From the IMG/VR virus record IMGVR_UViG_3300008219_004273, positions 1 to 54,247 of that record: 54,247 bases of DNA. One strand, given 5' to 3'. A program made the position numbers and the translations under genes. This document shows positions 2,272 to 49,964 of the stretch, piece after piece (within the stretch, counting starts at the first letter, position 1; each line of letters starts with the position of its first letter). This DNA is from a virus. Under the pieces are notes generated by a model. The model saw only the letters and a list, made by a program, of their open reading frames with translations, ran no database searches and was not told the DNA's origin.

Positions 2272-2670
2272 TTATTGACCTAGTTCTTGCTGCAGCAGTT
2301 CTTGTGAATATAAATTGGTCAATCGTCCCTCTGCTTTTTTAAGCTCCAATCTTTGAAAAATTCCTTGCAATTTCTTAATACTATCAGGAAATCTCAGGTT
2401 AAAATCAACTTCAAATTCTTCAAGTGCTTGATCAAAATCACCAGAATTAAAATTATCTGCAGATAGTAGTTTGATAATTTTATCAAAATATGCTAATTCC
2501 AGTCGTCTTCGCCAGGCTGATGGTGCTGTTCCTGCAGCCTTAATTGCATCCACTAGTTTTTGTCGTGATCGAGAGCGCGTGTCATAGTTCACCTCGGTCA
2601 GATCCGGATCAAATATTTTCTCAAGTTCTTCTTTGATAATCTGTTTTAGTTGTGTTTTTGTGATCTTCAT
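2272..2670 (-). CDS. Leader-bearing small protein (MKITKTQLKQIIKEEL family)
   Basis: A 132-residue protein starting MKITKTQLKQIIKEELEKIF, the leader found on five proteins in this window. After residue 16 the sequence is unlike the other four: charged, helical, with an Arg-rich stretch near 30-36 and many Leu/Asp/Glu. No known domain was recognised. The leader is an amphipathic basic helix ending I-K-E, which fits the (I/L)-x-E cut site of T4-type prohead proteases, suggesting a capsid-targeting sequence (inference). Its ATG overlaps the stop of the spanin-like gene at 2667 (ATGA), so translation is probably coupled. Confidence 0.8.
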   Translation of the reverse strand: MKITKTQLKQIIKEELEKIFDPDLTEVNYDTRSRSRQKLVDAIKAAGTAPSAWRRRLELAYFDKIIKLLSADNFNSGDFDQALEEFEVDFNLRFPDSIKKLQGIFQRLELKKAEGRLTNLYSQELLQQELGQ

Positions 2671-2678
2671 TGTTCATC
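2639..2678 (-). repeat. 40 bp direct repeat at a leader-gene start, copy A
   Basis: Identical to 3629-3668 over 40 bases. It covers the first 11 codons or so of the leader and 8 bases upstream of the ATG, so the repeat reaches into the end of the preceding gene. Confidence 0.85.
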
Positions 2679-3083
2679 CCTAGGAACATATTGGATCCCA
2701 AACGCATCTCCCAAAGCTCTTGATAGTGCTTCGGGATTGTCGTGATTTTCCTCAATAAGTTCCTTTATTCTTTTCTCTTTTCTTCGATCAACTTCTTGTA
2801 AATCGCTTTCTAACTGCTCATCAAGTTGTCCCATAACTTCCTGATGGATACGAATAATCTCATCTCGCCTGGCAATTTCGCCGGCGTGAGATTCATTGAG
2901 AACACCGATTTGTTCTTTATAGGATTCAGATCGAGTTTTCAATAATTTGGTGGCTACGTCCGATTTCCTGGCAAGGAAAACGGCCAGAACAAAAGCAACG
3001 ATGACGAGGAGAGGCACATACCAGTGATGCTTGATCCAAGTCCAAGCTTTCTGTAGAAAGTGTTTAGTTGCCAACCAAGTCAT
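2667..3083 (-). CDS. Membrane-anchored coiled-coil protein, candidate inner-membrane spanin
   Basis: A 138-residue protein with a short N-terminus (MTWLATKHFLQKAW), one membrane helix at about residues 21-39 (WYVPLLVIVAFVLAVFLAR), then about 85 residues of charged helical sequence with coiled-coil character. That N-in membrane anchor plus periplasmic coil is the architecture of Rz-type inner-membrane spanins, and a holin-like gene lies immediately upstream, but no sequence family was recognised. I start it at 3083, where AAAGGAG lies about 7 nt upstream; a longer frame begins at 3149 and overlaps the holin-like gene, with no ribosome-binding site. It could also be an unrelated membrane structural protein. 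Confidence 0.7.
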   Translation of the reverse strand: MTWLATKHFLQKAWTWIKHHWYVPLLVIVAFVLAVFLARKSDVATKLLKTRSESYKEQIGVLNESHAGEIARRDEIIRIHQEVMGQLDEQLESDLQEVDRRKEKRIKELIEENHDNPEALSRALGDAFGIQYVPRDEQ

Positions 3084-3152
3084 TTCTTCATCTCCTTTTG
3101 ATAAATTAGCATAGCGGCCCATCCAAATAAGTACAGGATCTTCATACATGTC

Positions 3153-3408: not shown

Positions 3409-3660
3409 TCACTCAAAAATGGTTTGATCAAAAAAAAGAGCGCGTGGATCCATCAAGGCATCTGCCAAATAAGCTTCGGGTTTTGATCCCAGGTCAAGTT
3501 CCCGATCAAGAACCGTATATACAAAATCGTCAAGAGGGTTCCCCGAGTCGAGGCCCAGGGCAGCGGCCTCTGCTCGTTCCATGGAACGGGCAGAGGCATC
3601 AAGCGAGCCCCCAAGCTCTTCCTTAATGATCTGTTTTAGTTGTGTTTTTGTGATCTTCAT
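3409..3660 (-). CDS. Leader-bearing small protein, probably frameshifted at a T8 run
   Basis: An 83-residue frame starting MKITKTQLKQIIKEEL; the body (GGSLDASARSMERAEAAALG...) is unlike the sister proteins. The coding strand has a run of eight T at 3437-3430 near the 3' end. With one T fewer, the frame would read ...RALFLIKPFLSELLGALQ and on to ENPQLY, stopping at 3357-3359, directly against the AAGGAGG ribosome-binding site of the holin-like gene. That extension looks more like real protein than the short tail FFDQTIFE. So this is either an assembly or sequencing error, a real truncation, or slippage producing two products. The leader ends in the I-K-E motif shared by the group. Confidence 0.75.
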   Translation of the reverse strand: MKITKTQLKQIIKEELGGSLDASARSMERAEAAALGLDSGNPLDDFVYTVLDRELDLGSKPEAYLADALMDPRALFFDQTIFE

Positions 3661-3668
3661 TGTTCATC
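3629..3668 (-). repeat. 40 bp direct repeat at a leader-gene start, copy B
   Basis: Perfect copy of 2639-2678, again covering the leader codons plus 8 bases upstream of the ATG. Confidence 0.85.
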
Positions 3669-4263
3669 TCTTTCGCCTCGCGAGTCTTGTTGTTTCGGGA
3701 TCAAGAACGACCTTCCTTGCTGGTCCTCGCAGGTGAGGAGATACCAAATCAGGAATATTCTGAAGAAGTTCCTCTACGTGTATTCGCAGTTTTTCGCCAG
3801 CTAGTTTGCGTCTGTCGCGGATTGCTTTATATTCTGGACCTCTTTTGCCTTTGATTCTTTCAACTTCTAGCACTAGTCTATGATACTCATTGACCAGCTC
3901 CTCCAACTGATAATCGTTTGCGAGAAGATCGCGGATTTCTTCTCTAGCCTCTCCGCGGACCTGGCGCGCGTTCTCCCTTGCCTTCCTTGCCAACGCCTTG
4001 CCCAACTTACGGTCTATAGTTTTAAAAAGCTTCCAGGTTTTTCGGCCCAGGGTGACGCCTCCATAAGCACCCAAAATACCGAGAGCAGTTCCCAGCGCGA
4101 TGGTGCCAATACCAACAGCTTCTTCCAATCCGGGCGGAAACCATTCATCTTCCAGTTCATCTTCTTCGCCCATTATTGCTTCAAGCTCTTCCTCGTCTTC
4201 GCGGATTACTTTTCCAAGCTCTTCCTTAATAATCTGTTTTAGTTGTGTCTTTGTGATCTTCAT
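3664..4263 (-). CDS. Leader-bearing membrane-helix protein
   Basis: A 199-residue protein starting MKITKTQLKQIIKEELGKVI. After an acidic stretch (residues 22-42) there is one Gly/Ala-rich hydrophobic segment at about residues 50-72 (VGIGTIALGTALGILGAYGG). A long, very basic, helical C-terminal half follows, ending RLARRKR. If the leader is a capsid-targeting sequence, the mature form would be a DNA-binding-like basic protein with one membrane-active helix, which could suit a protein ejected with the genome; this is inference. The first 87 bases from its leader are a perfect repeat of those of the next upstream gene (4276-4578). No known domain was recognised. Confidence 0.8.
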   Translation of the reverse strand: MKITKTQLKQIIKEELGKVIREDEEELEAIMGEEDELEDEWFPPGLEEAVGIGTIALGTALGILGAYGGVTLGRKTWKLFKTIDRKLGKALARKARENARQVRGEAREEIRDLLANDYQLEELVNEYHRLVLEVERIKGKRGPEYKAIRDRRKLAGEKLRIHVEELLQNIPDLVSPHLRGPARKVVLDPETTRLARRKR

Positions 4264-4275: not shown

Positions 4276-4578
4276 TTAATGGGGTCTCATCATATTATCA
4301 ATAACTATCTTCATTTGTTCTTTGGCGCCATATATACCACGGTTACGAAGATTTGCTGTTTCTCTGTGCATATGCTTTACCAGAGCGTCGTGGTTGTCAA
4401 TGTTGAAAGATGCTGCCGCCTGAACCACTCGGGCTGGATCATAGGATAATTCAAGAAAGTTGAGAAGATCGACGACCGATTTTTCAAATCCGCCTCCAAG
4501 CTCTTCCTCGTCTTCGCGGATTACTTTTCCAAGCTCTTCCTTAATAATCTGTTTTAGTTGTGTCTTTGTGATCTTCAT
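4276..4578 (-). CDS. Leader-bearing small protein
   Basis: A 100-residue protein whose first 27 residues match the protein at 3664-4263 (leader MKITKTQLKQIIKEEL, then GKVIREDEEEL). The rest is unrelated: a helical domain with SVVDLLNFLELSYDPARVV and several His and Met residues, ending MMRPH. The sharp switch from identical leader to unrelated body fits modular shuffling of a targeting sequence. The start has AAGGAGG upstream of the ATG, and an ACTATTTA box lies 31 nt upstream. Function unknown; candidate internal head protein. Confidence 0.8.
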   Translation of the reverse strand: MKITKTQLKQIIKEELGKVIREDEEELGGGFEKSVVDLLNFLELSYDPARVVQAAASFNIDNHDALVKHMHRETANLRNRGIYGAKEQMKIVIDNMMRPH

Positions 4579-4617: not shown

Positions 4618-7600
4618 CTACTGATTTACAAATGCAAACCCTTTTCTTTTCTCAATCGTTATTTGTTGATCGACGCAATCTTTGAGAGAATCCAAGTGAG
4701 AAATAAGGATAACTGTTTTGAAGTAAGATTTGATGAGATCGAGGATCTGAATGAAGTTTTCCATATTCTCTTCGTCAAGTTCTGTGCCTGGTTCATCAAG
4801 GATGAAAATGTCTGATTTTGGCAGTGACGAAACAGTCAGCAGCGCCAATCTGATAGCAATCGCAGCGATTGACTTTTCGCTTCCGCTGCCCATCGCGATT
4901 GGTCGCGGATCAAATCTTGGATGTTTGATGAAGATATTGAGCTTATTTCCATCATTCTCGAAATATACCTCAAACTCGACAATGTTCGCAAGGATCTTTG
5001 CAATCTCGTTGTTGATTACTGGAAGTCTCTTCTTGATAATGTCGTAGGCAATCCCGTTGCTGTGTGTACACCGCAGAAACAAATCATATGCTGCGTATTC
5101 TTCACGAATGTCGTGGAGTTCCTGCTTCTGTTCTCTTGTGGAAGTGAGCTTTTGATCCAGAGATCCATGAAGTTTGTAGAGTTCCAGAATTTCTTTCTCG
5201 CAGATTTCCAATTGTTCCTCTGATTCTTGAACTAGATTGTTTCCCTGCTCTTTCTCTGCGATTAGTTCTTCGAGATTCTCAATTGCTTCTTTGTTGTTTT
5301 CATATTCCTCAATCTTTTCTTCATAAGAACCAATACTCTCTTCCAGCTTTGAGATCTCCTGCTTTCTCTTTTCTAATGAAAGCTCTGTTGTGATAATCTG
5401 ATTCTTTATTTCATCTCTTTCTGTTCCCAGTTGATTGTATTTGTTTATGTAATCCTGAATCTGTATGGGATCTATTTCTTCGATCAAAGATTCTGTCTTG
5501 GTCTTCTTGGACAAAAAAGTCTCCACTTGTTCGTGAATGTCATCCTTTTTGTTCACAGCCTTATAAGCATCTTTGATGAACTTGCAGTGACTATATTCTG
5601 AACCACACGGAACCTCTTTGAGAAGACGAGACTTGCTTTGAATGTCTTTCTGTTCTCGCTCAACAATCTCCAGCTTGTTTGTTACTTCATCCAATTCTTC
5701 CATCAACACTTGGAATTCTTCTTCTTTCTCATTATACAAACCAATATCATATCCATCAAGAAATTTCCCAACTTCAACCAGCACTTCCTCTTTGTTGGAT
5801 AAATCTTTGGCTTCTTGTTCTTGAGTGGAAAAGAGTTCCCTGTATTCTCGCTCAACTTTCTTTAAAGATTTGTTCGTGCCGGCAATATCAATGATTTCTG
5901 CTGGAATTGTGCCTATTGTTTCCTCGACTTCTTGAACACTTGATTGAAGGGCGATAATATCATCTTTGATCTGTTCACATTCTTGTTCTTTGTTTTTGGT
6001 TATTAGTTCGTTGCCGGCAAGGTTTTGTCTTGCCTCTTCTATTTCTTCGTCAAACTCTTTGCCTTCAAGTCGCTTGAGTGCTCCTCGCAGATCTGTTGCG
6101 TCTTCCTTGGCGAGCTTGAATTTCTTATCAAAAATATGAAGATCAAGAAACTTCGCCAAGATTTCCTTTCGTCTCGTTGAACCTTCATTGATGAACTGCA
6201 AAGATTCTAACTGCGAAGACATAGAAGTCAACAAGAAATCTTCTAATGATCCAAAAACACGACGAATATTCTTATCCGTATCGTTTCTTGTGAGACCATT
6301 GAGAGATGTAGTTTCTCCTGAATTCTTGTTATATTTGAGGAAATCTACATTTGTTCTCGCCTCTGTTGTCACAGCGCCTTTAAGTTTCTTGGTATACTTT
6401 TCCAGATCTCGCTGAATTATGTAAGTATTGCCGGCAATCTCAATCTCTACGAGACCACTTGCTGCATTTTTGTTTTGATTAATGACATTAACATTTTTCC
6501 GCTCATTCTTAGAAGTTGAGTTGAAAAGTGTAAAAAGCAGTGAATCAACGACAGAACTTTTTCCAGAATAGTTTTTACCAAAAATTCCAACAGTTCCACG
6601 TAAATCGTCAAAATCGATAACATTGTCTTCTCCATAGTTAAAAAGGTTGTTCCAAGAAAGCTTCTTCAATTTCCAGTTGATATTTCTGGAAACATCTTCA
6701 TCTTGCTCGGCTAAAGTGTTATATTTTTCATTTAATTTGAAAACTTTTTTGAGTAGCTCATCGTTTATCTCATAGTCCCTAAGATACTCTTCGATCAGTT
6801 CTTCCTGAACTTCGAGATCACGAAGATCTTCTGTCTCCAAAGAAGCAGCCAAACCTTCGTCAATATTACCTTTTATGCCTCTTGCTCTATTTAAAAACGA
6901 AATAGATTCTGGTTTAAAGCGAGATTTCGCAACATCGACTGCTTTGCGCAGCCTGTCGAGAGATAAATTATTGTTTGAAACAAGACGAAGGCGGGCACCA
7001 TCAGGAACTCGTGTTCCCCGGGGCATCCTGCCTTTTGGTGTGAGTACGATAGTGATGAAGGGCTTTGGATTAGTTAGACGAATGTGCCGGCAAGAATATT
7101 CATTTTTATCTTCAATATCCCATAATAAATATCCTTTATCATTTGACTCACCAAAGTTCTGCTGAATCATCGAACCTGGATATCTCACTTTGCCGTCATC
7201 ATCTATGGCTTGATTTGTTTTGTGAATATCTCCAAGAAAAATGTAATCATGACCCTCAAAACATTCCAGTGGATCATCGTTGTGACTGATTACCCACCCA
7301 ACATCTGTTTTGGATCCGGCCAAAGCCCCGTGATATAAAGCAATATTGATGGCTTCTGGATCAATTGGTGCCGACCAGTTTTTCTTATCAAAAATAGAGA
7401 TTACATTGACCTTCACGGAGAGGCCACTAGCTTCGCCTATAACGGCCTCCTGCGATCTCTTGAGGTAGTGTAGGTTTGGGTGTGATAAAGCTCTTGCGAT
7501 TGGCGTTATTGCGTCTTGGCGAGAACTATTTTTGAGGTTTCCGTCGTGGTTTCCTGGAATCAAATATAAAGGTGCTATGTCTGCTAAGTTTTTGAGAAAC

Positions 7601-7785
7601 CCTGCGGCCATTTCGACTGCTTCTGGACTTAGATTTGTTTTATTGTGGAATAGATCTCCACAATGAACAATGCAATCCACCTTTTCTTCTTTCAAAGTAG
7701 CATATAATTGTTTAAATATCACTCCATATTCGTAGTGATATTTTTTGAGCCGAATATGCGTGTCGGCCAAATGTGCTATTTTCAT
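4618..7785 (-). CDS. Fused SbcD-SbcC (Mre11-Rad50; T4 gp47-gp46 type) recombination nuclease
   Basis: A 1055-residue single-chain version of the two-subunit DNA-end processing nuclease. Residues 1 to about 330 are an Mre11/SbcD metallophosphoesterase: D8-x-H10, G43-D44, G78-N-H-D81, a later L-Y-H-G and G-D-I-H. From about 375 the Rad50/SbcC part begins, with Walker A G-K-N-Y-S-G-K-S near residue 405, long coiled coils, a Cys pair C-x6-C near 727-734 at the apex, signature G-S-G-S-E-K-S near 965, and Walker B ILDEP near 995. In T4 the halves are separate genes, 47 and 46, needed for replication-linked recombination. The usual zinc hook is C-x-x-C, so the wider Cys spacing is odd. The frame is uninterrupted, so this is a genuine in-frame fusion unless misassembled. 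Confidence 0.95.
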   Translation of the reverse strand: MKIAHLADTHIRLKKYHYEYGVIFKQLYATLKEEKVDCIVHCGDLFHNKTNLSPEAVEMAAGFLKNLADIAPLYLIPGNHDGNLKNSSRQDAITPIARALSHPNLHYLKRSQEAVIGEASGLSVKVNVISIFDKKNWSAPIDPEAINIALYHGALAGSKTDVGWVISHNDDPLECFEGHDYIFLGDIHKTNQAIDDDGKVRYPGSMIQQNFGESNDKGYLLWDIEDKNEYSCRHIRLTNPKPFITIVLTPKGRMPRGTRVPDGARLRLVSNNNLSLDRLRKAVDVAKSRFKPESISFLNRARGIKGNIDEGLAASLETEDLRDLEVQEELIEEYLRDYEINDELLKKVFKLNEKYNTLAEQDEDVSRNINWKLKKLSWNNLFNYGEDNVIDFDDLRGTVGIFGKNYSGKSSVVDSLLFTLFNSTSKNERKNVNVINQNKNAASGLVEIEIAGNTYIIQRDLEKYTKKLKGAVTTEARTNVDFLKYNKNSGETTSLNGLTRNDTDKNIRRVFGSLEDFLLTSMSSQLESLQFINEGSTRRKEILAKFLDLHIFDKKFKLAKEDATDLRGALKRLEGKEFDEEIEEARQNLAGNELITKNKEQECEQIKDDIIALQSSVQEVEETIGTIPAEIIDIAGTNKSLKKVEREYRELFSTQEQEAKDLSNKEEVLVEVGKFLDGYDIGLYNEKEEEFQVLMEELDEVTNKLEIVEREQKDIQSKSRLLKEVPCGSEYSHCKFIKDAYKAVNKKDDIHEQVETFLSKKTKTESLIEEIDPIQIQDYINKYNQLGTERDEIKNQIITTELSLEKRKQEISKLEESIGSYEEKIEEYENNKEAIENLEELIAEKEQGNNLVQESEEQLEICEKEILELYKLHGSLDQKLTSTREQKQELHDIREEYAAYDLFLRCTHSNGIAYDIIKKRLPVINNEIAKILANIVEFEVYFENDGNKLNIFIKHPRFDPRPIAMGSGSEKSIAAIAIRLALLTVSSLPKSDIFILDEPGTELDEENMENFIQILDLIKSYFKTVILISHLDSLKDCVDQQITIEKRKGFAFVNQ

Positions 7786-8139: not shown

Positions 8140-8466
8140 TCATCCTTCAGAATCGATGGCGCGCGCCGCGTCGTAGGCCCAATTGAGATCAGCGATCTCT
8201 GCGTCGTGTTCTTCACTACTTTTGGGGATATTCGCTTGGAAAATCTTTTTTGTTTCTTCCGGTCCTAGTTCTTTTGCAGCTGCCTTCACTTGTTCTGCAA
8301 ACTCGGCCGCACTTGGCGCGCCTGGGTCGACCTCTCGAAACCGAGTGAGACCGCTCTCTGGGCTAGCAGAACCAGGCACCAGACTAGTACCAGGCTCCCA
8401 TTCTTGAAGAGTTGTTGCAATTTCTTCCTTAATGATCTGTTTGAGTTGTGTTTTTGTTAGTTTCAT
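8140..8466 (-). CDS. Leader-bearing small protein (variant leader MKLTKTQLKQIIKEEI)
   Basis: A 108-residue protein with a slightly diverged form of the shared leader, ending again in I-K-E-E. The body is acidic and low in complexity (EPGTSLVPGSASPESG, then PGAPSAAEFAEQVKAAAKEL) with a short helical end. It lies about 4 kb from the other leader genes, beyond the nuclease gene, showing that the leader is not confined to one tandem array. AAGGAGAT precedes the ATG, and an ACTATTTA box lies 36 nt upstream. Function unknown; candidate internal head protein. Confidence 0.8.
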   Translation of the reverse strand: MKLTKTQLKQIIKEEIATTLQEWEPGTSLVPGSASPESGLTRFREVDPGAPSAAEFAEQVKAAAKELGPEETKKIFQANIPKSSEEHDAEIADLNWAYDAARAIDSEG

Positions 8467-33962: not shown

Positions 33963-34364
33963 CTAGGCAATAAGATCTCCCATGAAATCTAATTTGAGTT
34001 CAAGTTTGTTTCGCGCTTGTAGTGTTCCAACCGCATATTCAATTTCTATATTCACAAAATTAAATGTATTTTCTAATTCTTTCGGTTTTTTAAAGTTTAT
34101 TCTAAAAATTTTTATATATGGAAGATAAGTTTGAACTTGATTGCGAATTTTCCCTTCAATTTGTCCATAAGTAAGTGGATTATTTTGTTCAAAAAGAAAT
34201 CTTTTTAAACCCACACCAAAGTTGGGATCCATTATTCTTTCGCCCGGGCTGGTTAAAATAAGCATCTTAAGATTTTGCAAAGCTAAACCTTCATACGTTT
34301 TAATTAACTTATATCCATCAGTTTCATCTCTTCGCAGAGGAAGTTCTGGTGCCAATCCTGCCAT
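33963..34364 (-). CDS. Baseplate wedge protein, gp25/GPW family
   Basis: A 133-residue protein with the gp25/W lysozyme-like fold used structurally in contractile tails. The hallmark region reads L-I-L-T-S-P-G-E-R-I-M-D-P-N-F-G-V-G-L at about residues 36-54, followed by F-L-F-E-Q-N-N and a helical I-R-N-Q-V section. In T4, gp25 joins gp6 and gp53 in the wedge core and helps to nucleate the sheath. Length is typical. GGGAGA precedes the ATG. The pairing with gp6 fixes this block as the baseplate. Confidence 0.93.
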   Translation of the reverse strand: MAGLAPELPLRRDETDGYKLIKTYEGLALQNLKMLILTSPGERIMDPNFGVGLKRFLFEQNNPLTYGQIEGKIRNQVQTYLPYIKIFRINFKKPKELENTFNFVNIEIEYAVGTLQARNKLELKLDFMGDLIA

Positions 34365-40244: not shown

Positions 40245-41201
40245 CTAATTCGTGTTGTTGTATCTGCTGTTGATGTATTTCTTCCCAATTGGATTGAGAA
40301 AGTTTATTTTATACATTGCCAAGTTCGCTTTGTGCGATAACAAAGAAAGTTTGGTTTGAGTTAGTTGTTTTACAGCAGTTGCAACACCAGAAGACACCAT
40401 TGTTGGCGAAGGTGGCGTTGGGGCACCCCAGCCTGGAGATATATGAAAATGAGTTGTTGCAAAACTGTTAAATTCCATTTGAGACATCAAAAATGGATCA
40501 ACAATCCCGCTCAATGCATCAACGTGAGAAACCAATTCTTCAATAGCAGCCACCAAATTACTCCCTTTAACCATTGGTTGTATATCCGTATCATCGTTGC
40601 CGGCAATTAAATCAATCCCAACCACACTTTCAACAGAAGCGCCCTGAGAATTCAACATATCCGTTCTCGTAATCAGCTTAATTCCATCGCGAGCAATAAT
40701 TCTAATTCCATCAGCTTTTAATGCAATACCGGACTTGGTGCTTGAGATACCAACTCTTCCAGGCACCAGGCCAAAGTTTTCATCAATGTCAGTTTTTTGA
40801 CTTATATAGATTCGCGCAGCATCCAGCTTGAAATCTGGATTTACCTCTGTAAATTCCCCTTGTTCGTTAACTTGTCTGGGATCTGCTCCCATTCTACCAC
40901 AAACAACATCTATCATTGCACATTGTGTTTCTCCACGACCACCATATCCACTTATACGATTATTTGGCCGATCTCTTCCTAATACAATTGAAGCATTATT
41001 TTCATTTGCAATTACTGTTTCACAATCCGCAGATATAAATCTTGGTACTGGTTCCAAGACCCTTGCGCCGGCGATACCTCTGGCGCCAGTGTTGTTTGCC
41101 AAGTCGGGTATAGTTCCGGCTTTGGCTAAAGCCACAGGTCCCAAACCCGCTAAAGAAACAGCCTTTCTGGTTGTTCGTGGTATAAATAGATTTTCTGCCA
41201 T
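40245..41201 (-). CDS. Baseplate spike-like protein
   Basis: A 318-residue protein starting MAENLFIPRTTRKAV. A central beta-rich part (G-I-S-S-T-K-S-G-I-A-L-K-A-D-G-I-R-I-I-A-R-D-G-I, about residues 152-180) has the short alternating strands seen in phage spike beta-helices. A helical segment (V-A-A-I-E-E-L-V-S-H-V-D) and T-H-F-H-I-S-P-G-W follow, with possible metal-binding His. It lies directly downstream of the two tail-lysin genes. I start at 41201, where GGAGAG precedes the ATG; a longer frame from 41282 overlaps the M23 gene. It is probably the membrane-piercing tip or its holder; no exact family is assigned. Confidence 0.75.
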   Translation of the reverse strand: MAENLFIPRTTRKAVSLAGLGPVALAKAGTIPDLANNTGARGIAGARVLEPVPRFISADCETVIANENNASIVLGRDRPNNRISGYGGRGETQCAMIDVVCGRMGADPRQVNEQGEFTEVNPDFKLDAARIYISQKTDIDENFGLVPGRVGISSTKSGIALKADGIRIIARDGIKLITRTDMLNSQGASVESVVGIDLIAGNDDTDIQPMVKGSNLVAAIEELVSHVDALSGIVDPFLMSQMEFNSFATTHFHISPGWGAPTPPSPTMVSSGVATAVKQLTQTKLSLLSHKANLAMYKINFLNPIGKKYINSRYNNTN

Positions 41202-41220: not shown

Positions 41221-42780
41221 TTATACTTGTTGTAGTGGGCCTTGTACAACATCCACATCTGGATTGAATATCTTAGAAACATCCATTACTGTAAACGGAC
41301 TTATATTGCCCCGGCCGGGTCGGGGGTTTGCAGCCATTTCCGAAACTGAAGCCTCAAGATGAAGATGAGACGGGTCTCCACCTGGAAACTTATCCAATTG
41401 ACGTGGGAGCCGCGTAGCATTCCTCGTATCATTTAAATCAGCTACATAAGATAACCCCAAGAAATCTCCCTTACGATGCTGGCCGCTCGCGGGGACTTCT
41501 CCACTCACATGAATAAAAGTAAGATTGGGGTTTCTAGGATCAGCAGGTCGATATTTAAACATTTTTTGATAATCTCGATCGGAGGAAGCGTTGCTTATAG
41601 CATGTACTTCGCCATCCCATGGAGCATACATGCTCGTGCCTGAAGGAACATATATGTCTTCACCCCAATGAACTCTACGATTTCCTGGTGTTCCACGAAC
41701 ACCACCAAATTGTGCAGTACCTCTTGATTGCAGGCCTGTCCCTCGGCCGGCGCGATATCGTTCCAAAAACCACAAAGGGGTTAAAGAAATTAAAGTTTCT
41801 CCCTCAAACTGCCCAGATGGGGGTTGAAGGCCCGGGCGAGCCGCGCGGGATTCATAAGTTCCATATGTAGGAAGGTCGTTGCGTCCAAGCCCGGTAGGGG
41901 CGCTCGATATGCCAGGCGGCAAACTTGTTCCAACAAGCGGTGTATCAAGACCACCGGTCCATTGACCCACTGTCGTCGCGCAACTTGCATAAACGGCTGG
42001 TTGCGCCGTCGGCAACTGAACTTCTGGATTGACCGTAGAATTATTAATATTAATCGCGAGATTATAAGCCAAATTTTCTTGAAACTCAACCTGAGACGCG
42101 GCAGTTATCCGAAGATTAGTGCCAACCGTTGTTAATCCACTTTCTGACAACATTTCTAAGGCAACCTCTCTAGAACTAAAACTTGAAATATATTCATATG
42201 CTGTACCTCGTTGTGATTCTTGAGAATCAGAAAAAACAAATGCTATTGTTAAACTATGGGTAGAAGTTGGATTAGTTCTTATTGTTTCAATTGATGCTGC
42301 AGCTTCAGGATTTTGAGCAGCAAATTCTGAACCTGGGCTAATCAATTCATTTAATTCTTCTGTGGTTTCTAATCCACTGCTTGGTGTATCTTCGGATGGT
42401 TCTGGTTCGGTTGAAGTTGAATTGTCCGAAGGATTTGAAAAATTCGCCACATCTTCAATTAAAGTACTGTCATCAGTAGATGTATCAACAGATGTTCCAG
42501 CTAAAGTCACGATGGTTGCAACTAATTGAGTACCAAACACGACAGTGCCGGTTCTTTCGTTTTCTATTCTAAACAGTCCCAACTCATTTCCACCCACAAT
42601 GGTAAACAAAAGATTTGCCGGCAAAGGATGTTCTTGTCCCGCAGCAATAGCCTTTCGTTCAGCAATGGTCGACGTTTCGGCAATAAACCTCTCCATATCT
42701 GGTGTTCCTGATGTATCGACATACAGTGTAGCATTCTCTGCATCAGCGAAACTGGTATTTGTTGTTGCGTATTCAGACAT
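41221..42780 (-). CDS. Tail-associated M23 (LytM) metallopeptidase
   Basis: A 519-residue protein. The C-terminal 150 residues are a peptidase M23 domain: H-W-G-E-D at about residues 373-377 (the H-x3-D zinc motif) and H-L-H at about 473-475, with A-P-W-D-G-E-V between. Such enzymes cut peptide cross-links in peptidoglycan. The N-terminal 370 residues are Ser/Thr/Glu/Pro-rich, with an acidic linker near 115-145 and beta-rich sections that probably anchor it to the baseplate. There is no signal peptide, so it acts as a virion enzyme or is released by lysis. Its neighbour is a second peptidoglycan hydrolase of different specificity. Confidence 0.88.
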   Translation of the reverse strand: MSEYATTNTSFADAENATLYVDTSGTPDMERFIAETSTIAERKAIAAGQEHPLPANLLFTIVGGNELGLFRIENERTGTVVFGTQLVATIVTLAGTSVDTSTDDSTLIEDVANFSNPSDNSTSTEPEPSEDTPSSGLETTEELNELISPGSEFAAQNPEAAASIETIRTNPTSTHSLTIAFVFSDSQESQRGTAYEYISSFSSREVALEMLSESGLTTVGTNLRITAASQVEFQENLAYNLAININNSTVNPEVQLPTAQPAVYASCATTVGQWTGGLDTPLVGTSLPPGISSAPTGLGRNDLPTYGTYESRAARPGLQPPSGQFEGETLISLTPLWFLERYRAGRGTGLQSRGTAQFGGVRGTPGNRRVHWGEDIYVPSGTSMYAPWDGEVHAISNASSDRDYQKMFKYRPADPRNPNLTFIHVSGEVPASGQHRKGDFLGLSYVADLNDTRNATRLPRQLDKFPGGDPSHLHLEASVSEMAANPRPGRGNISPFTVMDVSKIFNPDVDVVQGPLQQV

Positions 42781-42786
42781 TATTGT

Positions 42787-44151
42787 TTATGTAAATGATC
42801 CTAAATATTCCTCAGATCCGTCATAAAAATTGTCGAGTTCACGATAAGAGCCCCTGCCTGACCGGGGATTACTCTTTAAACGTTCATGAATATTTATCAA
42901 GGGTTGGTGTCCTAGTTCCTTACCTGGGCCGACTTTTCCACGAATATCGTGTTCGGCACGTTCCGCGTTGAGAATTGCGTTCCAACTACCTTCAGCTGAA
43001 CGCTCGACTCCTGATATTTCAGGTAATGTACGAAATCGAATATCCTCATGAGCGAAGTTAAAATTCAAATTATTTGGTTCATCATCAAACTGATGGCCTG
43101 GATCACTGCGATTGCGTTTATAATGTCTATGACCAATTACAGCAAGATTTTTAAGCTCGTTACTGCCAATTAACTCTCTTACGGCCGTAAATTGTCTTTG
43201 TGTGTGAGGATAAGATTCGCGGCCCGGATGACCGGTAAGGTCAATCCCAACACTTATCCTATTCATATGCCCGGCGTGCCATGGAGCATATCGTTCTGGA
43301 GGTGCCAAGAGAACAATTGTTCCATCCTCTAAAATCACAAAATTGGTACCAACGCGTCTTCCTAAACCATGACTAATCCAGCGCTGTACTGCGGCCGGGC
43401 CGTCTGGATAATGTCTCCCAGCTGTGCTGTGAATCACTATTGTTGTAGCCCCTTCTAAGCTGTTCTCACGAGTATACCACGGGCCGGCGCCGCTGCGGAG
43501 CCTAGGCAGGTTGCCTACAGGAAAAGAACCAGCACTGGTGCCCAGTGGGGCCCCTGACGGGCCTGTTGCGCCTAGGGGGGCACCACACCGAGCAGCTGCA
43601 TACGCAGCGGCAGACTCTAACCCCTCTGCTCCTAGGTTTACCGATTGTTGACCAACAGCACCCAGAAAGATTGGACCTTCAAAGTTTTGTTTATCTTCAA
43701 AATCCAAATTAATAATGCTTCCAATAGCTGGAACTGGTATCGTATCGTCCATTGCAATGAACGTTGGATACAAGTCAATTATTTGTTGACTTGGACCGTG
43801 TGACGAGCCCAGTTGTTCTGGATCGGGAATCATACAGTGCAATTCTGGTATTATACATTTTATGTGTACACGTACAGGTGCCGGCAGGCCTCGAAGTTCA
43901 GAATAATTAGCTACCGGGCCGGTGGGTGGAATCGATGGTAACTCCACTCTAAGAACCACGCCCTTCCAAGTACCCCTATTTGATAAAACATTTGCAGTAT
44001 ACTGCTCCCTCGCTGCATATTTTGCCGAACTTAAAAAATCAACTTTGCGACGATCAATCCTGTCTTCTATAACTGGTCTATTTATCTTATTTAAAGCACC
44101 AATTTCGGCGCCTTGCAAGGGATTGTCTGCTATGCCGTCGCGTCTACTCAC
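42787..44151 (-). CDS. gp5-like OB-fold fused to N-acetylmuramoyl-L-alanine amidase
   Basis: A 454-residue tail lysin. Residues 60-180 match the gp5/VgrG-type OB-fold (W-K-G-V-V-L-R-V-E-L-P-S, then V-P-A-I-G-S-I-I-N-L-D-F). A low-complexity Gly/Ala/Pro linker at about 190-220 carries a doubled G-A-P-L-G motif and is unusually GC-rich. Residues 230-360 are an amidase_2 domain: I-H-S-T-A-G near 238, H-A-G-H near 290, G-H-R-H near 343 and S-D-P-G-H near 352 supply the zinc ligands. In T4 gp5 the enzymatic insert is a lysozyme, so an amidase has taken that role. It starts with GTG, overlapping the stop of the upstream gene by one base. Confidence 0.88.
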   Translation of the reverse strand: MSRRDGIADNPLQGAEIGALNKINRPVIEDRIDRRKVDFLSSAKYAAREQYTANVLSNRGTWKGVVLRVELPSIPPTGPVANYSELRGLPAPVRVHIKCIIPELHCMIPDPEQLGSSHGPSQQIIDLYPTFIAMDDTIPVPAIGSIINLDFEDKQNFEGPIFLGAVGQQSVNLGAEGLESAAAYAAARCGAPLGATGPSGAPLGTSAGSFPVGNLPRLRSGAGPWYTRENSLEGATTIVIHSTAGRHYPDGPAAVQRWISHGLGRRVGTNFVILEDGTIVLLAPPERYAPWHAGHMNRISVGIDLTGHPGRESYPHTQRQFTAVRELIGSNELKNLAVIGHRHYKRNRSDPGHQFDDEPNNLNFNFAHEDIRFRTLPEISGVERSAEGSWNAILNAERAEHDIRGKVGPGKELGHQPLINIHERLKSNPRSGRGSYRELDNFYDGSEEYLGSFT

Positions 44152-44444
44152 TATGCTACGTCCTTAACCTCTTTGATAATATCAAACAGTTCATCTTTGT
44201 CTTTATTGGTCAAGCCTTCGTCCTTGCCTTGTTTTTTCTGCAAGAGCGATACAATCTTCACAAGTTGTTCATTGGATCGTTGAAGAGTTTCAACGTATTT
44301 GGCTGCAACAACACCAACTTCCCTATGTTTATCATCTCCGGTAGACATATAGTTTACCAGTTCTTTAAGAAGCTTCTTTGTTGTCTTTCGATCTTCTCGA
44401 ATATTGCTTATAGCTTCACCGAGATACATTTCTAGCTTTATCAT
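44151..44444 (-). CDS. Small helical hypothetical protein
   Basis: A 97-residue charged, all-helical protein (M-Y-L-G-E-A-I-S-N-I-R-E-D near the start, then K-L-L-K-E-L-V and a Lys/Glu/Asp-rich end). No domain was recognised. GGAGGT precedes the ATG, and its TAG overlaps the GTG of the tail lysin, so it is probably co-translated with it. It may be an assembly factor or minor baseplate component. Confidence 0.7.
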   Translation of the reverse strand: MIKLEMYLGEAISNIREDRKTTKKLLKELVNYMSTGDDKHREVGVVAAKYVETLQRSNEQLVKIVSLLQKKQGKDEGLTNKDKDELFDIIKEVKDVA

Positions 44445-44475: not shown

Positions 44476-45171
44476 CTAAATTTCTCCCTTGTTCCATTTT
44501 TTCCTGAACTCTCTATATTTTATTCTCATTTTGTTCAAATTGTTGACAATCTGCTTTGTGTTCAAGCCGGTGATCTCTCTCATATACAAATAAACTGCTT
44601 TTTTGTTGAAAATTTCAATGTCATCCGAAGATTCGAAAAGAATTTTAATTGCCTGCAACACTTTGTATTCGTTAGGTTTTAAAGCGCCAGTGTCCCAGGA
44701 TTTTACTTCTATATAAAAGCTTTCCCAAAATTCTTCTTTTTCTCTGCGAGTCTCATATTGATTATATGTGACAAGCTTTTCGTGAACTAAGCTTCTGGGT
44801 ACGTCATATATGTCTATTTCTTGTCTATTCTTTTTAGCGTTCTTTTTGACTTTATGAATAAACCAGTTTTTTGTGATTACAGAAAAATAAGAAAAAGCTT
44901 TTGAGCCTTTGTTGGGGTCATATTTATCAAGAATCATGGTGAGCCACACCTTGCATTCATCACGAAGCTCATCAATGTTTGGAAGAGACGTAAATTTATA
45001 AGTAAAAACTATTTTATCAACCATCTCATTGAAAGCCGGCTGAATAAAGTCAATATATAACCGCGTTCTTTCTTTTATACAGTCGCTATTGGCGTATTGT
45101 ACTATCGCATCTTCATGAACCTGTGTAAAATAGTGCTTTTTATTCGGCTTCTTCGAATTCTTCTTCGACAT
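44476..45171 (-). CDS. Late-transcription sigma factor, gp55-like
   Basis: A 231-residue basic protein related to the sigma-70 family. Region 2 is recognisable at about residues 65-110: L-R-D-E-C-K-V-W-L-T-M-I-L, D-K-Y-D-P-N-K-G, F-S-Y-F-S-V-I-T-K-N-W-F-I-H-K. The phrase F-S-Y-F-x-x-I-T-x-N-W-F-I-H is characteristic of T4 gp55, which directs host RNA polymerase to late promoters. The C-terminal half is helical, with K-Q-I-V-N-N-L-N-K-M and a basic end. It probably controls the structural genes downstream. GAGGGG precedes the ATG; it overlaps the preceding gene by 32 bp. Confidence 0.88.
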   Translation of the reverse strand: MSKKNSKKPNKKHYFTQVHEDAIVQYANSDCIKERTRLYIDFIQPAFNEMVDKIVFTYKFTSLPNIDELRDECKVWLTMILDKYDPNKGSKAFSYFSVITKNWFIHKVKKNAKKNRQEIDIYDVPRSLVHEKLVTYNQYETRREKEEFWESFYIEVKSWDTGALKPNEYKVLQAIKILFESSDDIEIFNKKAVYLYMREITGLNTKQIVNNLNKMRIKYREFRKKWNKGEI

Positions 45172-45914: not shown

Positions 45915-46856
45915 TTATCTTAAAATATTTTTTGCATTAGTATAGGGATCTTGAAAATCAACGATTTTAAGGGCCCGTACAATTTCGTCTATGCCCTCCT
46001 CAATTGTTATTGTCGTCTTGAACCCTAATTTGTTTATCTTCTCATAGCTCACTATATAATCTCTCTTATCTGCATCAGAACCAATCTCCTCGTAATGCAC
46101 AAACGCATTGGTTCTCTCCGCAATCATGTTACACACAGCCTCCTTGCTGTAATTCATTGATGCATCACCAACATTGTAGACATTATTGATCATCTTATCC
46201 AGATTCTGCAAGGCGAATATAAACGAATTTGCCATATCTGCAACATGTATAAATGTTCTCATAAAGTCTTTTTCATAAACTACCAAATAACCATCCTTCA
46301 TGCACTTGTTGGTGAAATCGTTTATAAGTAAATCCAATCTAAGCCTTGGAGATATACCAAACGCAGTGGCGAATCGATAAGCTATGGAGTTGTTCCTCTC
46401 CAGCAACATCTTCTCTGCTTCGGTTTTTGTATAACCATACAAGCTCAGAGGATTAAGTGGCGTTTCCTCTGTGCAAACGCCATCGACTGTGCCATAGTTA
46501 CTGCCCGTCGAGCCATATAAGATCACCTGATCGGGCGTGCAGGCTTCTATCAAGTTGACGGTGCCTTGGACATTAACTTCTTTGGTTAGTTGGGGATTGT
46601 TCTTGCAAGCCGGAAACCCGACAATCGCTGCCAAGTGTATTACAACATCGTTTCCTTCGACAGCCGACTTTAGTTCTGGGGCCATTCTAATGTCCCCTCT
46701 CACAAAATTAAAGTTTTTAAATCTAAAAAATGGAAGAAGTTGATTCCCCCCAAACATTAAATTATCAAACACTGTCACTTCATGCCCAGCTTCCAAAAGC
46801 TTAGGCATTAGTGTGGTACCAACATACCCGGCGCCGCCGGTTACTAAAATTTTCAT
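45915..46856 (-). CDS. NAD-dependent sugar epimerase/dehydratase (SDR)
   Basis: A 313-residue extended SDR enzyme. The Rossmann motif G7-G-A-G-Y-V-G13 starts the protein, and the catalytic Y-x3-K is in S-L-Y-G-Y-T-K near residues 138-143. Length is standard for nucleotide-sugar 4-epimerases and dehydratases; the exact sugar cannot be told. It is the last gene of the surface-sugar cassette and overlaps the preceding SDR gene by 4 bp (ATGA), so it is part of the same operon. Confidence 0.9.
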   Translation of the reverse strand: MKILVTGGAGYVGTTLMPKLLEAGHEVTVFDNLMFGGNQLLPFFRFKNFNFVRGDIRMAPELKSAVEGNDVVIHLAAIVGFPACKNNPQLTKEVNVQGTVNLIEACTPDQVILYGSTGSNYGTVDGVCTEETPLNPLSLYGYTKTEAEKMLLERNNSIAYRFATAFGISPRLRLDLLINDFTNKCMKDGYLVVYEKDFMRTFIHVADMANSFIFALQNLDKMINNVYNVGDASMNYSKEAVCNMIAERTNAFVHYEEIGSDADKRDYIVSYEKINKLGFKTTITIEEGIDEIVRALKIVDFQDPYTNAKNILR

Positions 46857-47629
46857 GTAAGGTTGCCCCTCTCGCGCTCTGTCTTTACAAAATTTGACAA
46901 ATCTTCAACTATTTCTTGTTCGCTGTAGAGATAATCTGATTGTAAATCCCAATATTTGGAATGTTTCGTTTTCATGTTGTAATGCACCAAGTTTGCTGCC
47001 GGCAATTCTTCCGGATCTTTCGAGAAAACCTCTCTAGTCAGGTCCCCTATCTTTATGGGAGATGACGAAATGTTTAATATTCTCAACCCATTGCTTAGTG
47101 CTATTTCTATATCTTTTGACAAATTATCTAAATTATAAAACTGCATATAACTAAGCTTATTTGGGGCGTAACCATATCCCCCCCTTATCGCATCATATAT
47201 GAAATTCTTTTTAAGACCTTTGCCAAATATCGATGGCAACCTAACTACCAAAGAGTCAAACTTTTTCAACGCATGTAACTCTAACATCCGGCGGTGGCGA
47301 CCATATGGTCTTAAGTTATCAATTTCTATATCACAATCTTCATCAACAGAGTCCAAATTATCGTAGACCCCTATTGTTGATATTAGAACCAACTTTTTAA
47401 ACCTAGTATTATTTAAACTATCTATCAAACTCTCAACAGAAGATAAGTCTTGTTTGGGGTTTTGATTGGCATACCACTTTACTCCAGGGGTGCCGGCACA
47501 GTATAAAGTGTCAATGCGTTCTCCTCGAATATCGTCAATGTTTTCAGAATTATAATGAGAACTAAAATCCACTTGATTCATTAAATTGGAGCCGACGAAC
47601 CCTGTATGTCCAACAAGGGCCCTATCCAT
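46853..47629 (-). CDS. NAD(P)-binding SDR-like sugar reductase
   Basis: A 258-residue protein starting MDRALVGHTGFVGSNL, a Rossmann G-x-x-G-x-x-G with the G-H-T-G-F-V-G variant also used by the 48742-49671 product. S-T-I-G-V-Y and Y-G-R-H-R-R-M near residue 110 take the place of the usual Y-x3-K (here Y-x3-R), so catalysis may be altered. R-L-P-S-I-F-G is a typical SDR strand. I start at 47629, with AGGA just upstream and the start inside the end of the aminotransferase gene; a longer frame from 47668 is less likely. Confidence 0.8.
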   Translation of the reverse strand: MDRALVGHTGFVGSNLMNQVDFSSHYNSENIDDIRGERIDTLYCAGTPGVKWYANQNPKQDLSSVESLIDSLNNTRFKKLVLISTIGVYDNLDSVDEDCDIEIDNLRPYGRHRRMLELHALKKFDSLVVRLPSIFGKGLKKNFIYDAIRGGYGYAPNKLSYMQFYNLDNLSKDIEIALSNGLRILNISSSPIKIGDLTREVFSKDPEELPAANLVHYNMKTKHSKYWDLQSDYLYSEQEIVEDLSNFVKTERERGNLT

Positions 47630-48752
47630 AGTTCCTAACCACGTCAATAATCCTAGAAAACCCCCCATCCGTTAAATCTAAATGTAGTGGGAGCAATATT
47701 GTGTCCTTGTCTGCTCTTTCCAAATTGGGCAAATCCGTTCTTAACCCCCCAAATATATCATATATGTCATTTCGCCTGTTGTTCACATTTACTTGAATAC
47801 CGTTTTCCCACATGTAGTGAGCAAATTTCCTCCGTTTATGTACATGCACAGGAAATATCTGATAATTTGGAACCCTGTCGTCCTTATAATTTATTAATTT
47901 GATATTGGACAAGTCAGACAGCCCTTTTCTATAAGCCTCTCCTATCTCTCTTCTCCTAAAGAGTGCTGTGTCTAATTCTTCCATAGCAACGCACGCTAAT
48001 GTAGCTGTTATGTCGTTCATGTTCATTTTAAACCCCAAACCATCCGGATGGGCAGGAAGTGGATCCAAAATGTCCGTTTTCTTGGCGTCCCTGTCGATAC
48101 CATACCACACCTTTTTCTTTAATGAATTATAAATATCTTCTCTTGTGGTCGTAACGACTCCACCGTCACCACATGTGACAATCTTAACACACTGAAAAGA
48201 AAAACAGGCAACATCGCCTGTAGAACCAATTGGGTGGCCCCTGTATTCTGTGCCCATAGCGTGGGCGCTATCTTCAATAATGGGCAAATTATATTTTTGA
48301 CCAACTTGGCGGATTTCCTCCAGATCTGCAGAGTTCCCAGCATAATGTACACACATAATCGCTTTTGTCTTATCAGTTATCTGTTTTTCAATGCTGATCG
48401 GATCAATGTTCAGTGTATCGTATTGGATATCTGCAAATTTTGGAATTGCCCCCATTTCTAAAATGGATGTATTCGTCGCGATGAAGGTATAGGGAGTACT
48501 CACTACCTCGTCACCATAGCCAACGCCCAAAGCCGCAAGGGCTGCCTTTAGAGCACTTGTACCGCTTGTACATGCAACAGCATATGGGGCCTTAAATTTT
48601 TCACAGATTTTTTGTCTGAACTCTTTTTCTTTTTTGCCGGTATTAATCCATGTAGATTTTAGTGTTTTTTCTACTTCTTTCGCTGCACGTTCTGGTACAT
48701 TAACAGACCATGTTCTTATTTCTTGGCCTATTACATAGTCCTTATTTGCCAT
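47622..48752 (-). CDS. DegT/DnrJ/EryC1-family sugar aminotransferase
   Basis: A 376-residue PLP enzyme, of the usual length. The N-terminal T-W-I-N-T-G-K, cofactor-pocket T-S-G-T-S-A-L near residue 63, E-D-S-A-H-A and the Lys in F-S-F-Q-C-V-K-I-V-T-C-G-D-G-G near 187 are family landmarks; that Lys binds PLP. These enzymes place an amino group on a keto-sugar nucleotide (transamination), a step in making amino sugars for LPS and capsule. GGGAGGTG precedes the ATG. It lies between two SDR genes, which could supply the keto substrate. Confidence 0.92.
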   Translation of the reverse strand: MANKDYVIGQEIRTWSVNVPERAAKEVEKTLKSTWINTGKKEKEFRQKICEKFKAPYAVACTSGTSALKAALAALGVGYGDEVVSTPYTFIATNTSILEMGAIPKFADIQYDTLNIDPISIEKQITDKTKAIMCVHYAGNSADLEEIRQVGQKYNLPIIEDSAHAMGTEYRGHPIGSTGDVACFSFQCVKIVTCGDGGVVTTTREDIYNSLKKKVWYGIDRDAKKTDILDPLPAHPDGLGFKMNMNDITATLACVAMEELDTALFRRREIGEAYRKGLSDLSNIKLINYKDDRVPNYQIFPVHVHKRRKFAHYMWENGIQVNVNNRRNDIYDIFGGLRTDLPNLERADKDTILLPLHLDLTDGGFSRIIDVVRNYG

Positions 48753-49671
48753 GCAACACCTCCCTATAGTACTTGACTGTTTCTTCTATTCCCTTCTCAT
48801 GGTTGTAAAACTGAAAATCACCCACAATTTCATCCATTTTCCCAACCTTTAAAATTTTAATTGCGGCGCCGTCTTGATAATCAGTGTTAAATACCAAATC
48901 CCCTTCAAACCCAACTGCTTTGGAAATATATTGAGCGGTTTCTTTAATAGAATATCCTTTACCTTGAGCTAGATTGATAGGTTCAATTAATTCTTGATTA
49001 TTCTCTGCTGCCTTGAGCATAATCTCACAAACGTCATCGATAAAGATCCACTCCCTTATGGGACTTCCTGTACCCCAAATCTCAAACTCCGATGCAGACT
49101 CTTTTTGACAATCTAACATTCTTATAATCATTCCATTCAATGCATGCACCTTGTTGGGATCCGTACTATCGCCCGGGCCATAGATCCCGGGCAACATCAG
49201 ATTCACGCTCTTAACCCCATATTGCATACTGTAACATCTTGATAGAAAATACAAGATTCTCTTAAAATTTCCAAATGAAAACACAGAGGGATGAACAGGA
49301 CCAGATAGCCACTCATCTTCGTCTTGTAAAGTTGATCCGTCGGCATAACAACAATTTGAAATAGGATTGATTATTATAGCTTTTGGAAAAACACGATTAA
49401 CTACCTTATACAAGTTTATCGCCATGAGGCTGTTATCAGTTATAACCTCGGCAGCTTTAGCGGTAACATAGTGTACACTGCCAACGTTGGCTGCAAGGTT
49501 ATAAATTACACCCACATTGCCAATGTCACCTACAGCCTGAAGAAAACTATCATAGTCTCTCAAATCACACTCAGCAGTAGACAAACCCACCACATCGTGT
49601 CCCCTATCAGCTAAAAACTTAGATAAGCTCTTCCCAACGAAGCCGGTATGGCCCAAAATTAAAGATTTCAT
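48742..49671 (-). CDS. GDP-L-fucose synthase-like SDR epimerase/reductase
   Basis: A 309-residue SDR enzyme starting MKSLILGHTGFVGKSL. The order of motifs (N-L-A-A-N-V-G near residue 74, N-P-I-S-N-C-C-Y, and P-G-I-Y-G-P-G-D near 170 with R-E-W-I-F-I-D-D) follows GDP-fucose synthase and related epimerase/reductases. The usual catalytic Tyr appears replaced: S-F-G-N-F-K-R stands where Y-x3-K is expected, leaving the Lys. That may be a family variant or a loss of function. I start at 49671, where AGGAGGAG lies just upstream; the longer frame from 49719 runs into the DUF962 gene. Confidence 0.82.
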   Translation of the reverse strand: MKSLILGHTGFVGKSLSKFLADRGHDVVGLSTAECDLRDYDSFLQAVGDIGNVGVIYNLAANVGSVHYVTAKAAEVITDNSLMAINLYKVVNRVFPKAIIINPISNCCYADGSTLQDEDEWLSGPVHPSVFSFGNFKRILYFLSRCYSMQYGVKSVNLMLPGIYGPGDSTDPNKVHALNGMIIRMLDCQKESASEFEIWGTGSPIREWIFIDDVCEIMLKAAENNQELIEPINLAQGKGYSIKETAQYISKAVGFEGDLVFNTDYQDGAAIKILKVGKMDEIVGDFQFYNHEKGIEETVKYYREVLHGK

Positions 49672-49964
49672 TCTCCTCCTCTCAATCTTCCAGTTAAAAT
49701 GTCCTTTAACATAATCCAATCACAAGCTTTTGCCCACAGCGGATTCCCAAAGGCAGCTGGCCTATTCTTTTCAAAAAAATAATGACCAGACCATGCAAAT
49801 GGATAAACCACAAATGGGATCAATGGGATCAAAAGCCAATGTGAATTATAAAATACAAAAACTGTGAACATAATTGTGAATAGCTGCCCTAGAACGTGCA
49901 GCCTACGACACCACTTGTTTTGATGCAATGTTAAATAATATTGATAATATTGTCTAAATGTCAT
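49668..49964 (-). CDS. Mpo1-like (DUF962) membrane protein
   Basis: A 98-residue protein with L-H-Q-N-K-W-C-R-R-L-H-V-L-G at residues 13-26, a hydrophobic middle with two membrane helices, and W-S-G-H-Y-F-F-E-K-N-R-P-A-A-F at about 59-73, then N-P-L-W-A. These are the signatures of the DUF962/Mpo1-like family. Yeast Mpo1 is an iron-dependent dioxygenase that shortens 2-hydroxy fatty acids; the His residues hold the iron. Its role in a phage is unclear; within a sugar cassette it might act on lipid A acyl chains or another lipid (inference). It overlaps its downstream neighbour by 4 bp. Confidence 0.82.
   Translation of the reverse strand: MTFRQYYQYYLTLHQNKWCRRLHVLGQLFTIMFTVFVFYNSHWLLIPLIPFVVYPFAWSGHYFFEKNRPAAFGNPLWAKACDWIMLKDILTGRLRGGE

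Follow-up and report, generated by a model that had tools for sequence, protein, structure and literature searches.

A candidate tail-tip lysin slot with a conserved OB-type adaptor and exchangeable wall hydrolases in an uncultured contractile-tailed phage lineage

We have examined the 54,247-base IMG/VR virus record IMGVR_UViG_3300008219_004273 (hereafter the window, meaning this whole stretch), and within it two adjacent genes that encode an OB-amidase protein (P0001) and an M23-like protein (P0002), next to the gene for a spike-like protein (P0003). Comparison with related loci suggests that these genes form the tail-tip lysin slot of a lineage of uncultured, contractile-tailed phages, in which an OB adaptor is kept and enzymes are exchanged, with P0002 as an add-on and P0003 as the spike; we put the probability of this reading at about 0.7. 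The slot appears to be a modular platform with a homologous OB domain and exchangeable cargo, and the window's two putative lysins would be one of its states.

Results

A P0003 search of IMG/VR recovered 18 loci and a 14-member alignment recovered 427 related stretches, the best 80 of which were kept, giving a sample that leans toward the window's kin. Both scans contributed to the 95 loci used here, and loci cut by contig ends were excluded (L numbers denote loci, G numbers relative records). P0003 and a small upstream gene enclose a variable slot that contains one to three genes. The set comprises 68 distinct complete slots, or 69 with L009, which was added by hand, its small gene having gone undetected; together they encode 78 proteins. 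Slots were called distinct by exact sequence and include the near-duplicates L046/L048 (99.9%) and L018/L022 (91%).

An OB profile matched 68 of the 78 slot proteins and at least one protein in 65 of the 69 slots, and found no match in the other plus-strand open reading frames (ORFs) of the 95 loci (1,072 ORFs in all). This profile was iterated on the same loci, which favours inclusion; the initial single-sequence search already gave expectation values (E) down to 3e-32. Slots L023, L024, L096 and L097 lack an OB match, as do the second genes of L007, L009, L037, L069 and L085. The order of domains also varies, with an M15 domain placed ahead of the OB domain in L088.

What accompanies the OB domain differs widely. 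In 41 of the 69 slots a wall hydrolase is recognised (at E 0.01 or better, in some cases under Pfam's cut-off), drawn from the families Amidase_2, VanY/M15, M23, phage lysozyme, muramidase, SLT, GH19 and Phage_lysozyme2; some family-level matches were assigned to slot members via per-protein and per-place searches. At the other extreme, four slots (L050, L052, L061 and L063) hold OB-only proteins of 192–210 amino acids. Searches of the L050, L052, L062 and L063 records for Amidase_2, M23 and VanY were all negative, a muramidase search of L050, L052, L061/L062 and L063 found none, and SLT, searched in two, was likewise absent.

At least two different hydrolase families occur in 16 of the 69 slots (L007, L009, L016, L029, L031, L037, L038, L040, L045, L046, L048, L051, L078, L087, L091 and L093), although some qualify through a single weak match (to M23 for L007, to amidase for L031 and to VanY for L087), and L046 is nearly identical to L048. 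L091 and L093 combine VanY with muramidase; L016 has three OB genes, bearing GDSL, muramidase and amidase, and L104 has two OB-bearing genes. In L009 the same OB domain bears phage lysozyme, and a second gene, without OB, encodes GDSL plus M23; the second gene of L037, also without OB, carries VanY. Amidase and M23 are joined on one OB protein of 1,343–1,422 amino acids in L029, L040, L046/L048 and L051. Thus, the pair in the window resembles such a fusion split in two, with domains that are not close to theirs in sequence.

Pairwise comparisons locate where cargo departs from a shared framework. The alignment of L038 with L040 runs in two pieces as far as residue 1195 of L038, after which L038 has VanY and L040 has M23. 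L028 and L032 are 44% identical up to residue 247–250 and then continue as GH19 and VanY, respectively. L015 shares 41% identity with L050 in the OB part, and it alone extends into VanY.

The preliminary description of this DNA had proposed an OB-fold joined to an amidase, and P0001 does have this architecture, without gp5-specific kinship of the OB domain being singled out. The Pfam match to Amidase_2 (PF01510) reaches 51.5 bits (cut-off 26, E 1.7e-13), and the domain looks intact from its sequence, containing H241, the GHR histidine and the aspartate of SDPG at residues 349–352, which we take to be the expected zinc and catalytic residues. An AlphaFold2 model from 22 sequences is good in parts (mean predicted local distance difference test score (pLDDT) 58.4, predicted template modelling score (pTM) 0.36), with pLDDT per ten residues of 81–96 in the OB stretch 60–168, apart from residues 71–90, where it is 53–65. 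Foldseek with this model against the PDB gave no match at E 0.001 or better, and the best rows below that threshold were T7 lysozyme, AmiD and amidase endolysins. By VIA-align, residues of about 233–367 superpose on the PGRP/AmpD/T7 lysozyme amidase fold (Z about 7–8.7) and residues 60–168 on the OB fold (P1 baseplate protein Z 7.8, VgrG1 6.8, T4 gp5 6.6–6.7). The amidase is followed by a tail of about 90 residues, with no beta-helix in the same precursor. The OB part of P0001 is closest to that of L044 (41%), and its amidase is just distantly like that of any relative.

The linker between the two domains is as GC-rich (guanine plus cytosine) and as rich in Gly, Ala and Pro as first described, at 63% GC versus 38.8% for the window and 46.6% for the P0001 gene, a richness reached by 0.09% of equal-sized stretches, and the motif GAPLG does occur twice. 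A Gly/Ala/Pro-rich stretch after the OB domain is common among slot proteins (median fraction 0.33 versus 0.22 in the OB domain; 0.48 in P0001). The doubled GAPLG is present in no other slot protein and was rejected as a conserved signal.

P0002 is likely a divergent M23 peptidase, judged by its sequence. All five M23 catalytic residues are present in order (H371, D375, H424, H472 and H474, forming HxxxD, a third His and HxH), an arrangement that arose in 1 of 20,000 shuffles of the protein. In a single pairwise hhalign comparison with the M23 domains of five relatives, all five residues aligned (E 0.0021, probability 13%). A genome-scale search gave M23 at 15.8 bits (E 8.8e-4), still under the cut-off of 28.7, and PHROGs returned a metallo-endopeptidase at E 0.03. 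When the motif was scanned across 616 ORFs of 150 amino acids or more, 17 were positive and 11 of these are M23 proteins, P0002 included; the six others (L064–L067, L070 and L097_0) were not called M23. Relatives of P0002 in IMG/VR were 100%-identical ones only, its residues 1–290 had no convincing homologue among slot proteins, and against the PDB the whole protein had no sequence match and its C-terminal part matched only antibody domains, at E above 1.

P0003 is probably a separately encoded spike. Its model is beta-rich at about residues 60–211, followed by a helical hairpin at 213–302. Its sequence profile matched nothing in the PDB, one of 14 family members matched a PHROGs 'baseplate protein' at E 0.0097, and one unnamed viral protein in BFVD matched at E 5e-21. 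A tblastn search of 50,697 phage records found no cultured homologue of P0001, P0002 or three P0003-family members. Nevertheless, the neighbourhood is recognisable in two cultured phages. The window's gp6-like protein, aligned over 99% of its length, shares 31.8% identity with its counterpart in Flavobacterium phage immuto; its identity to the Microcystis phage Mel-JY01 protein is 31.4%. Both phages keep the order sigma factor, small gene, spike-like protein (by inspection), gp25-like and gp6-like. The sigma factor matches at E 1e-41 (immuto) and 7e-34 (Mel-JY01) and the small gene at 3e-5 and 1e-5 (E for a 29-protein set). Against the P0003 profile, immuto gp116 gives a weak match (hmmsearch E 0.019 for the 29-protein set; hhalign E 0.051, collinear over 179 columns), and the Mel-JY01 spike-like protein WWT39504 gave no match to that profile. 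Thus, cultured-phage gene order and the weak gp116 match support, without proving, the identification of P0003 as a spike.

These cultured loci (immuto gp116; Mel-JY01 WWT39504/WWT39505) differ from the window in that their spike-like gene appears, by inspection, to encode a single chain that includes an N-terminal domain of its own, with no match to the OB profile. No lysin is annotated at the slot position in immuto, and Mel-JY01 has a putative chitinase gene (COG3179) directly after the spike-like gene. A Mel-JY01 gene at the expected gp25 position (L113 15490–15993) is annotated 'tail lysozyme', perhaps a naming carry-over from gp25 annotations. Separately, the contigs with the P0003 relatives L111 and L110 were assigned to metagenome-assembled genomes (MAGs) of candidate division WOR-3 (a chromosome record of 2.8 Mb) and Actinomycetes, respectively. 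These relatives are possibly prophages or mis-binned phages; the L110 slot has an OB match and, by inspection, an SLT-like stretch.

Four of 50 relative records (G003, G015, G026 and G037) contain a separate amidase ORF of 257–299 amino acids, roughly 90–120 kb from the slot. By inspection, three of the four have what we take to be an N-terminal peptidoglycan-binding-like repeat, and presumably ClpP-like and GroEL-like genes lie near three each. These separate amidases are likely endolysins, which favours an entry role for the slot, and by analogy the slot enzymes may act at entry. P0001 itself does not qualify as a stand-alone endolysin, its amidase being fused to the slot's OB domain. The window also has an Rz-like spanin gene (2667–3149, E 2.5e-4) that is matched in 15 of 20 records; on this evidence the host is probably diderm.

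The features of the locus are collected in Table 1. The long genes of the window are on the minus strand, and the P0001 and P0002 frames are both open throughout with 6 bases between them; the likely start of P0003 (MAENLF...) lies 19 bases past P0002. Downstream of P0003 are a gene for a 1,949-amino-acid protein and then the gp25-like and gp6-like genes.

Table 1. Positions in the window of the slot genes, their domains and neighbouring genes (aa, amino acids)
Feature	Position	Strand	Basis
OB-amidase protein P0001, 454 aa, GTG start	42787..44151	-	ORF, Amidase_2 and fold match
OB-type domain plus leader, P0001 residues 13-167, conserved slot adaptor	43651..44115	-	OB profile in 68/78 slot proteins; fold match
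Gly/Ala/Pro linker, P0001 residues 169-232, GC 0.63, GAPLG at residues 190 and 200	43456..43647	-	Sequence
Amidase_2 catalytic domain, P0001 residues 236-352	43096..43446	-	Pfam and fold match
M23-like protein P0002, 519 aa; residues 1-290 without assigned fold or OB match	41221..42780	-	Motif, profile comparison
M23-like catalytic stretch of P0002, H371 to H474	41359..41670	-	Motif, profile comparison
Spike-like protein P0003, 318 aa, conserved locus anchor	40245..41201	-	Relatives, model, weak match to gp116 of Flavobacterium phage immuto
Small conserved gene, 97 aa, upstream boundary of slot	44151..44444	-	Conservation in relatives
gp55-like late sigma factor gene, syntenic with cultured relatives	44476..45171	-	PHROGs, synteny
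gp25-like baseplate wedge gene	33963..34364	-	Sequence match
gp6-like baseplate wedge gene, 31.8% to Flavobacterium phage immuto	32155..33948	-	Sequence match

Three further features of the window were recorded. Upstream of the sigma gene is a run of sugar-related genes (45915–49719, minus strand) with an aminotransferase, a nucleotide-sugar epimerase and, by inspection, more epimerase-like ORFs; similar-looking sugar genes occur at the same position in several relatives, again by inspection. An ORF of 1,055 amino acids (4618–7785, minus strand) matches SbcD over residues 1–370 and SbcC over 348–1051, an apparent single-chain fusion of the T4 gp47/gp46 (Mre11/Rad50-like) pair. The same N-terminal peptide, MK[IL]TKTQLKQIIKEE[LI], starts five otherwise unlike short ORFs (8140–8466, 4276–4578, 3664–4263, 3409–3660 and 2272–2670, all minus strand). 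It has matches at E 1 or better in 13 of 17 large relatives, with as many as 9 in one record; almost all start at residue 1 of the query, and most lie in short open frames. T4 internal proteins bear a capsid-targeting peptide, and the shared peptide looks like a sorting signal, perhaps also one for capsid targeting.

Discussion

We propose that P0001 is anchored by its OB domain, which would sit between hub and spike at the tail tip in the manner of the T4 gp5 OB domain, and that the linker lets the amidase hang alongside the spike. After contraction, the amidase would cut the MurNAc-L-Ala (N-acetylmuramic acid–L-alanine) bond, and P0002, as an add-on M23-like enzyme, would cut peptide cross-links; P0002 is probably built into the same tail tip via an anchor in its first 290 residues. 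P0003 would be the spike, supplied from a separate gene. Across the lineage the OB adaptor would be retained as enzymes are swapped, fused, duplicated or lost, perhaps under selection by host wall chemistry. Side-by-side OB genes, three in L016 and two in L104, allow a doubtful elaboration of this scheme, a combinatorial enzyme socket in which the gp5-like tip trimer would be a heterotrimer with a different chemistry on each chain, the window adding its second chemistry by a non-OB protein.

The preliminary description held that two tail lysins of different chemistry replace the T4 gp5 lysozyme. Its two chemistries draw support from the OB-amidase, the adjacent M23-like gene and the gp25-/gp6-like baseplate setting, but P0002 lacks an OB domain and its tail placement is conjectural. 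Replacement is the wrong frame, because the slot is variable across the lineage and L009 carries phage lysozyme on the same OB domain; the spike-like part, moreover, is a separate gene. Two chemistries beside a spike, as one state of a modular slot, is the likely description.

Several findings, taken up here with the alternatives they bear on, weigh against a tail-tip lysin slot with exchangeable enzymes. Of the 69 slots, 22 besides the four OB-only ones have no recognised enzyme, and L017 and L058 have a GDSL match only. The P0003 model has no fold match in the PDB at E 0.001, and a further search gave helical-hairpin matches only and no spike. On a P0003 tree of 68 proteins, made by a quick method and weak in its deep branches, cargo labels change at least 17 times, compared with a floor of 13 for 14 states and 25–29 changes in 200 shuffles; labels were set by hand on 45 rows, leaving out the 23 of 68 that had no clear class. 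Therefore, cargo is mostly inherited with the anchor gene, with some exchange on top, and free shuffling of cargo is rejected.

The M23 assignment of P0002 is also exposed. Peptidase M23 (PF01551) falls below its Pfam cut-off (13.8 bits versus 28.7, E 0.07) and a hidden Markov model built from the same five relatives' M23 domains missed the protein, so that the earlier statement that the next gene is an M23 peptidase stands with this caveat. The OB profile gave no match in P0002, and its place in the virion is therefore putative. The OB-amidase could accordingly be the sole tail lysin, with P0002 serving in tail assembly or morphogenesis, or being a degenerate enzyme whose role is structural, as its weak M23 score and its first 290 residues, for which slot proteins offer no homologue, would allow. 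We consider this unlikely, given that the five catalytic residues are intact, that the non-OB second genes at the same place in L009 and L037 are clear enzymes, and that other relatives fuse amidase and M23 in one protein.

Alternatively, P0001 and P0002 could form a two-component endolysin that acts only at lysis and sits in a baseplate operon by chance. No separate amidase was found in the window or in a 75.8 kb near-identical contig, which also has no other M23, although both are fragments, and the spanin-like gene lies elsewhere in the window. Set against this are the fusion of the amidase to an OB domain conserved in 65 of 69 slots, in four of which the OB domain stands with almost nothing else, the separate likely endolysins of four relatives, and a slot-flanking gene order kept in relatives and largely in two cultured phages; we regard a lysis-only role as highly improbable.

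Finally, generic OB domains (proteasome, IF-1) reach Z 6.5–7.0 on P0001 residues 60–168 and so tie with gp5 and VgrG; therefore, fold alone cannot single out gp5, and a sequence profile of 40 OB domains matched no gp5 or VgrG chain in the PDB. We give very little credence to the reading of these domains as generic wall- or sugar-binding modules in place of gp5-type tail adaptors, as within the loci they are found solely in the slot beside the spike-like gene and persist without a recognised enzyme in 4 of 69 slots.

Among known systems, VgrG spikes of type VI secretion are OB-spike carriers with exchangeable C-terminal effectors. They resemble the slot in their OB fold and in pairing an OB carrier with exchangeable cargo, and differ in that the lineage's cargo is a wall hydrolase in a phage and that OB carrier and spike-like protein are on separate genes. 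PMC7650644 describes T4 gp5 as an OB domain (1–129), a lysozyme (174–339) and a beta-helix (389–575), with maturation cleavage between 351 and 352. P0001 shares with gp5, so described, an OB domain, a long linker, a wall-cutting domain and a baseplate setting. In contrast to gp5, it has an amidase in place of lysozyme, an extra M23-like gene follows, the spike-like part is separate, and comparison of the OB profile with the PDB found no sequence-level similarity.

Mixed-chemistry virion lysins are already known. According to Latka et al. 2017 (PMC5380687), most virion lysins carry one lytic domain; the combinations listed are amidase with lysozyme, lysozyme with endopeptidase, and endopeptidase with SGNH hydrolase, and the two-domain lysins then known were all from phages of Gram-positive hosts. 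The same review credits just one Gram-negative phage lysin with demonstrated endopeptidase activity, and names PRD1 and phi11 as the sole viruses with two different virion lysins. The lysins phi11 gp49/gp44, phiMR11 gp61, HydH5 and SP-beta CwlP place two different wall-directed activities on one virion, as is proposed for the window; the window differs in its probably diderm host, judged from the spanin-like gene, and in its OB-adaptor carrier. Other reports describe mixed architectures, including M23 and amidase, in a 2023 survey of enterococcal tail lysins (PMC10194240), and domain shuffling as general among phage lysins and tail proteins (PMC10684548). The needle of contractile phage phiCD508 has, according to PMC11948020, a tip without recognised wall enzymes, and in this it resembles the OB-only slots by description only; its host is Gram-positive, and its OB fold and metal-binding apex are in one chain. 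Among the matches listed for open-licence PubMed Central, several of them judged by title and the opening of the abstract, no paper on the lineage or on an OB-lysin exchange slot appeared. What is new is how these parts are arranged, and that the carrier is a contractile phage whose host is probably diderm.

If our reading is correct, many uncultured phages would tune one tail-tip adaptor with anything from no recognised enzyme gene to three, and mixed-chemistry virion lysins would extend to contractile phages of probably diderm hosts. The slot sequences form a library of natural OB-lysin fusions, and may offer a natural series with which to probe how wall chemistry shapes phage entry.

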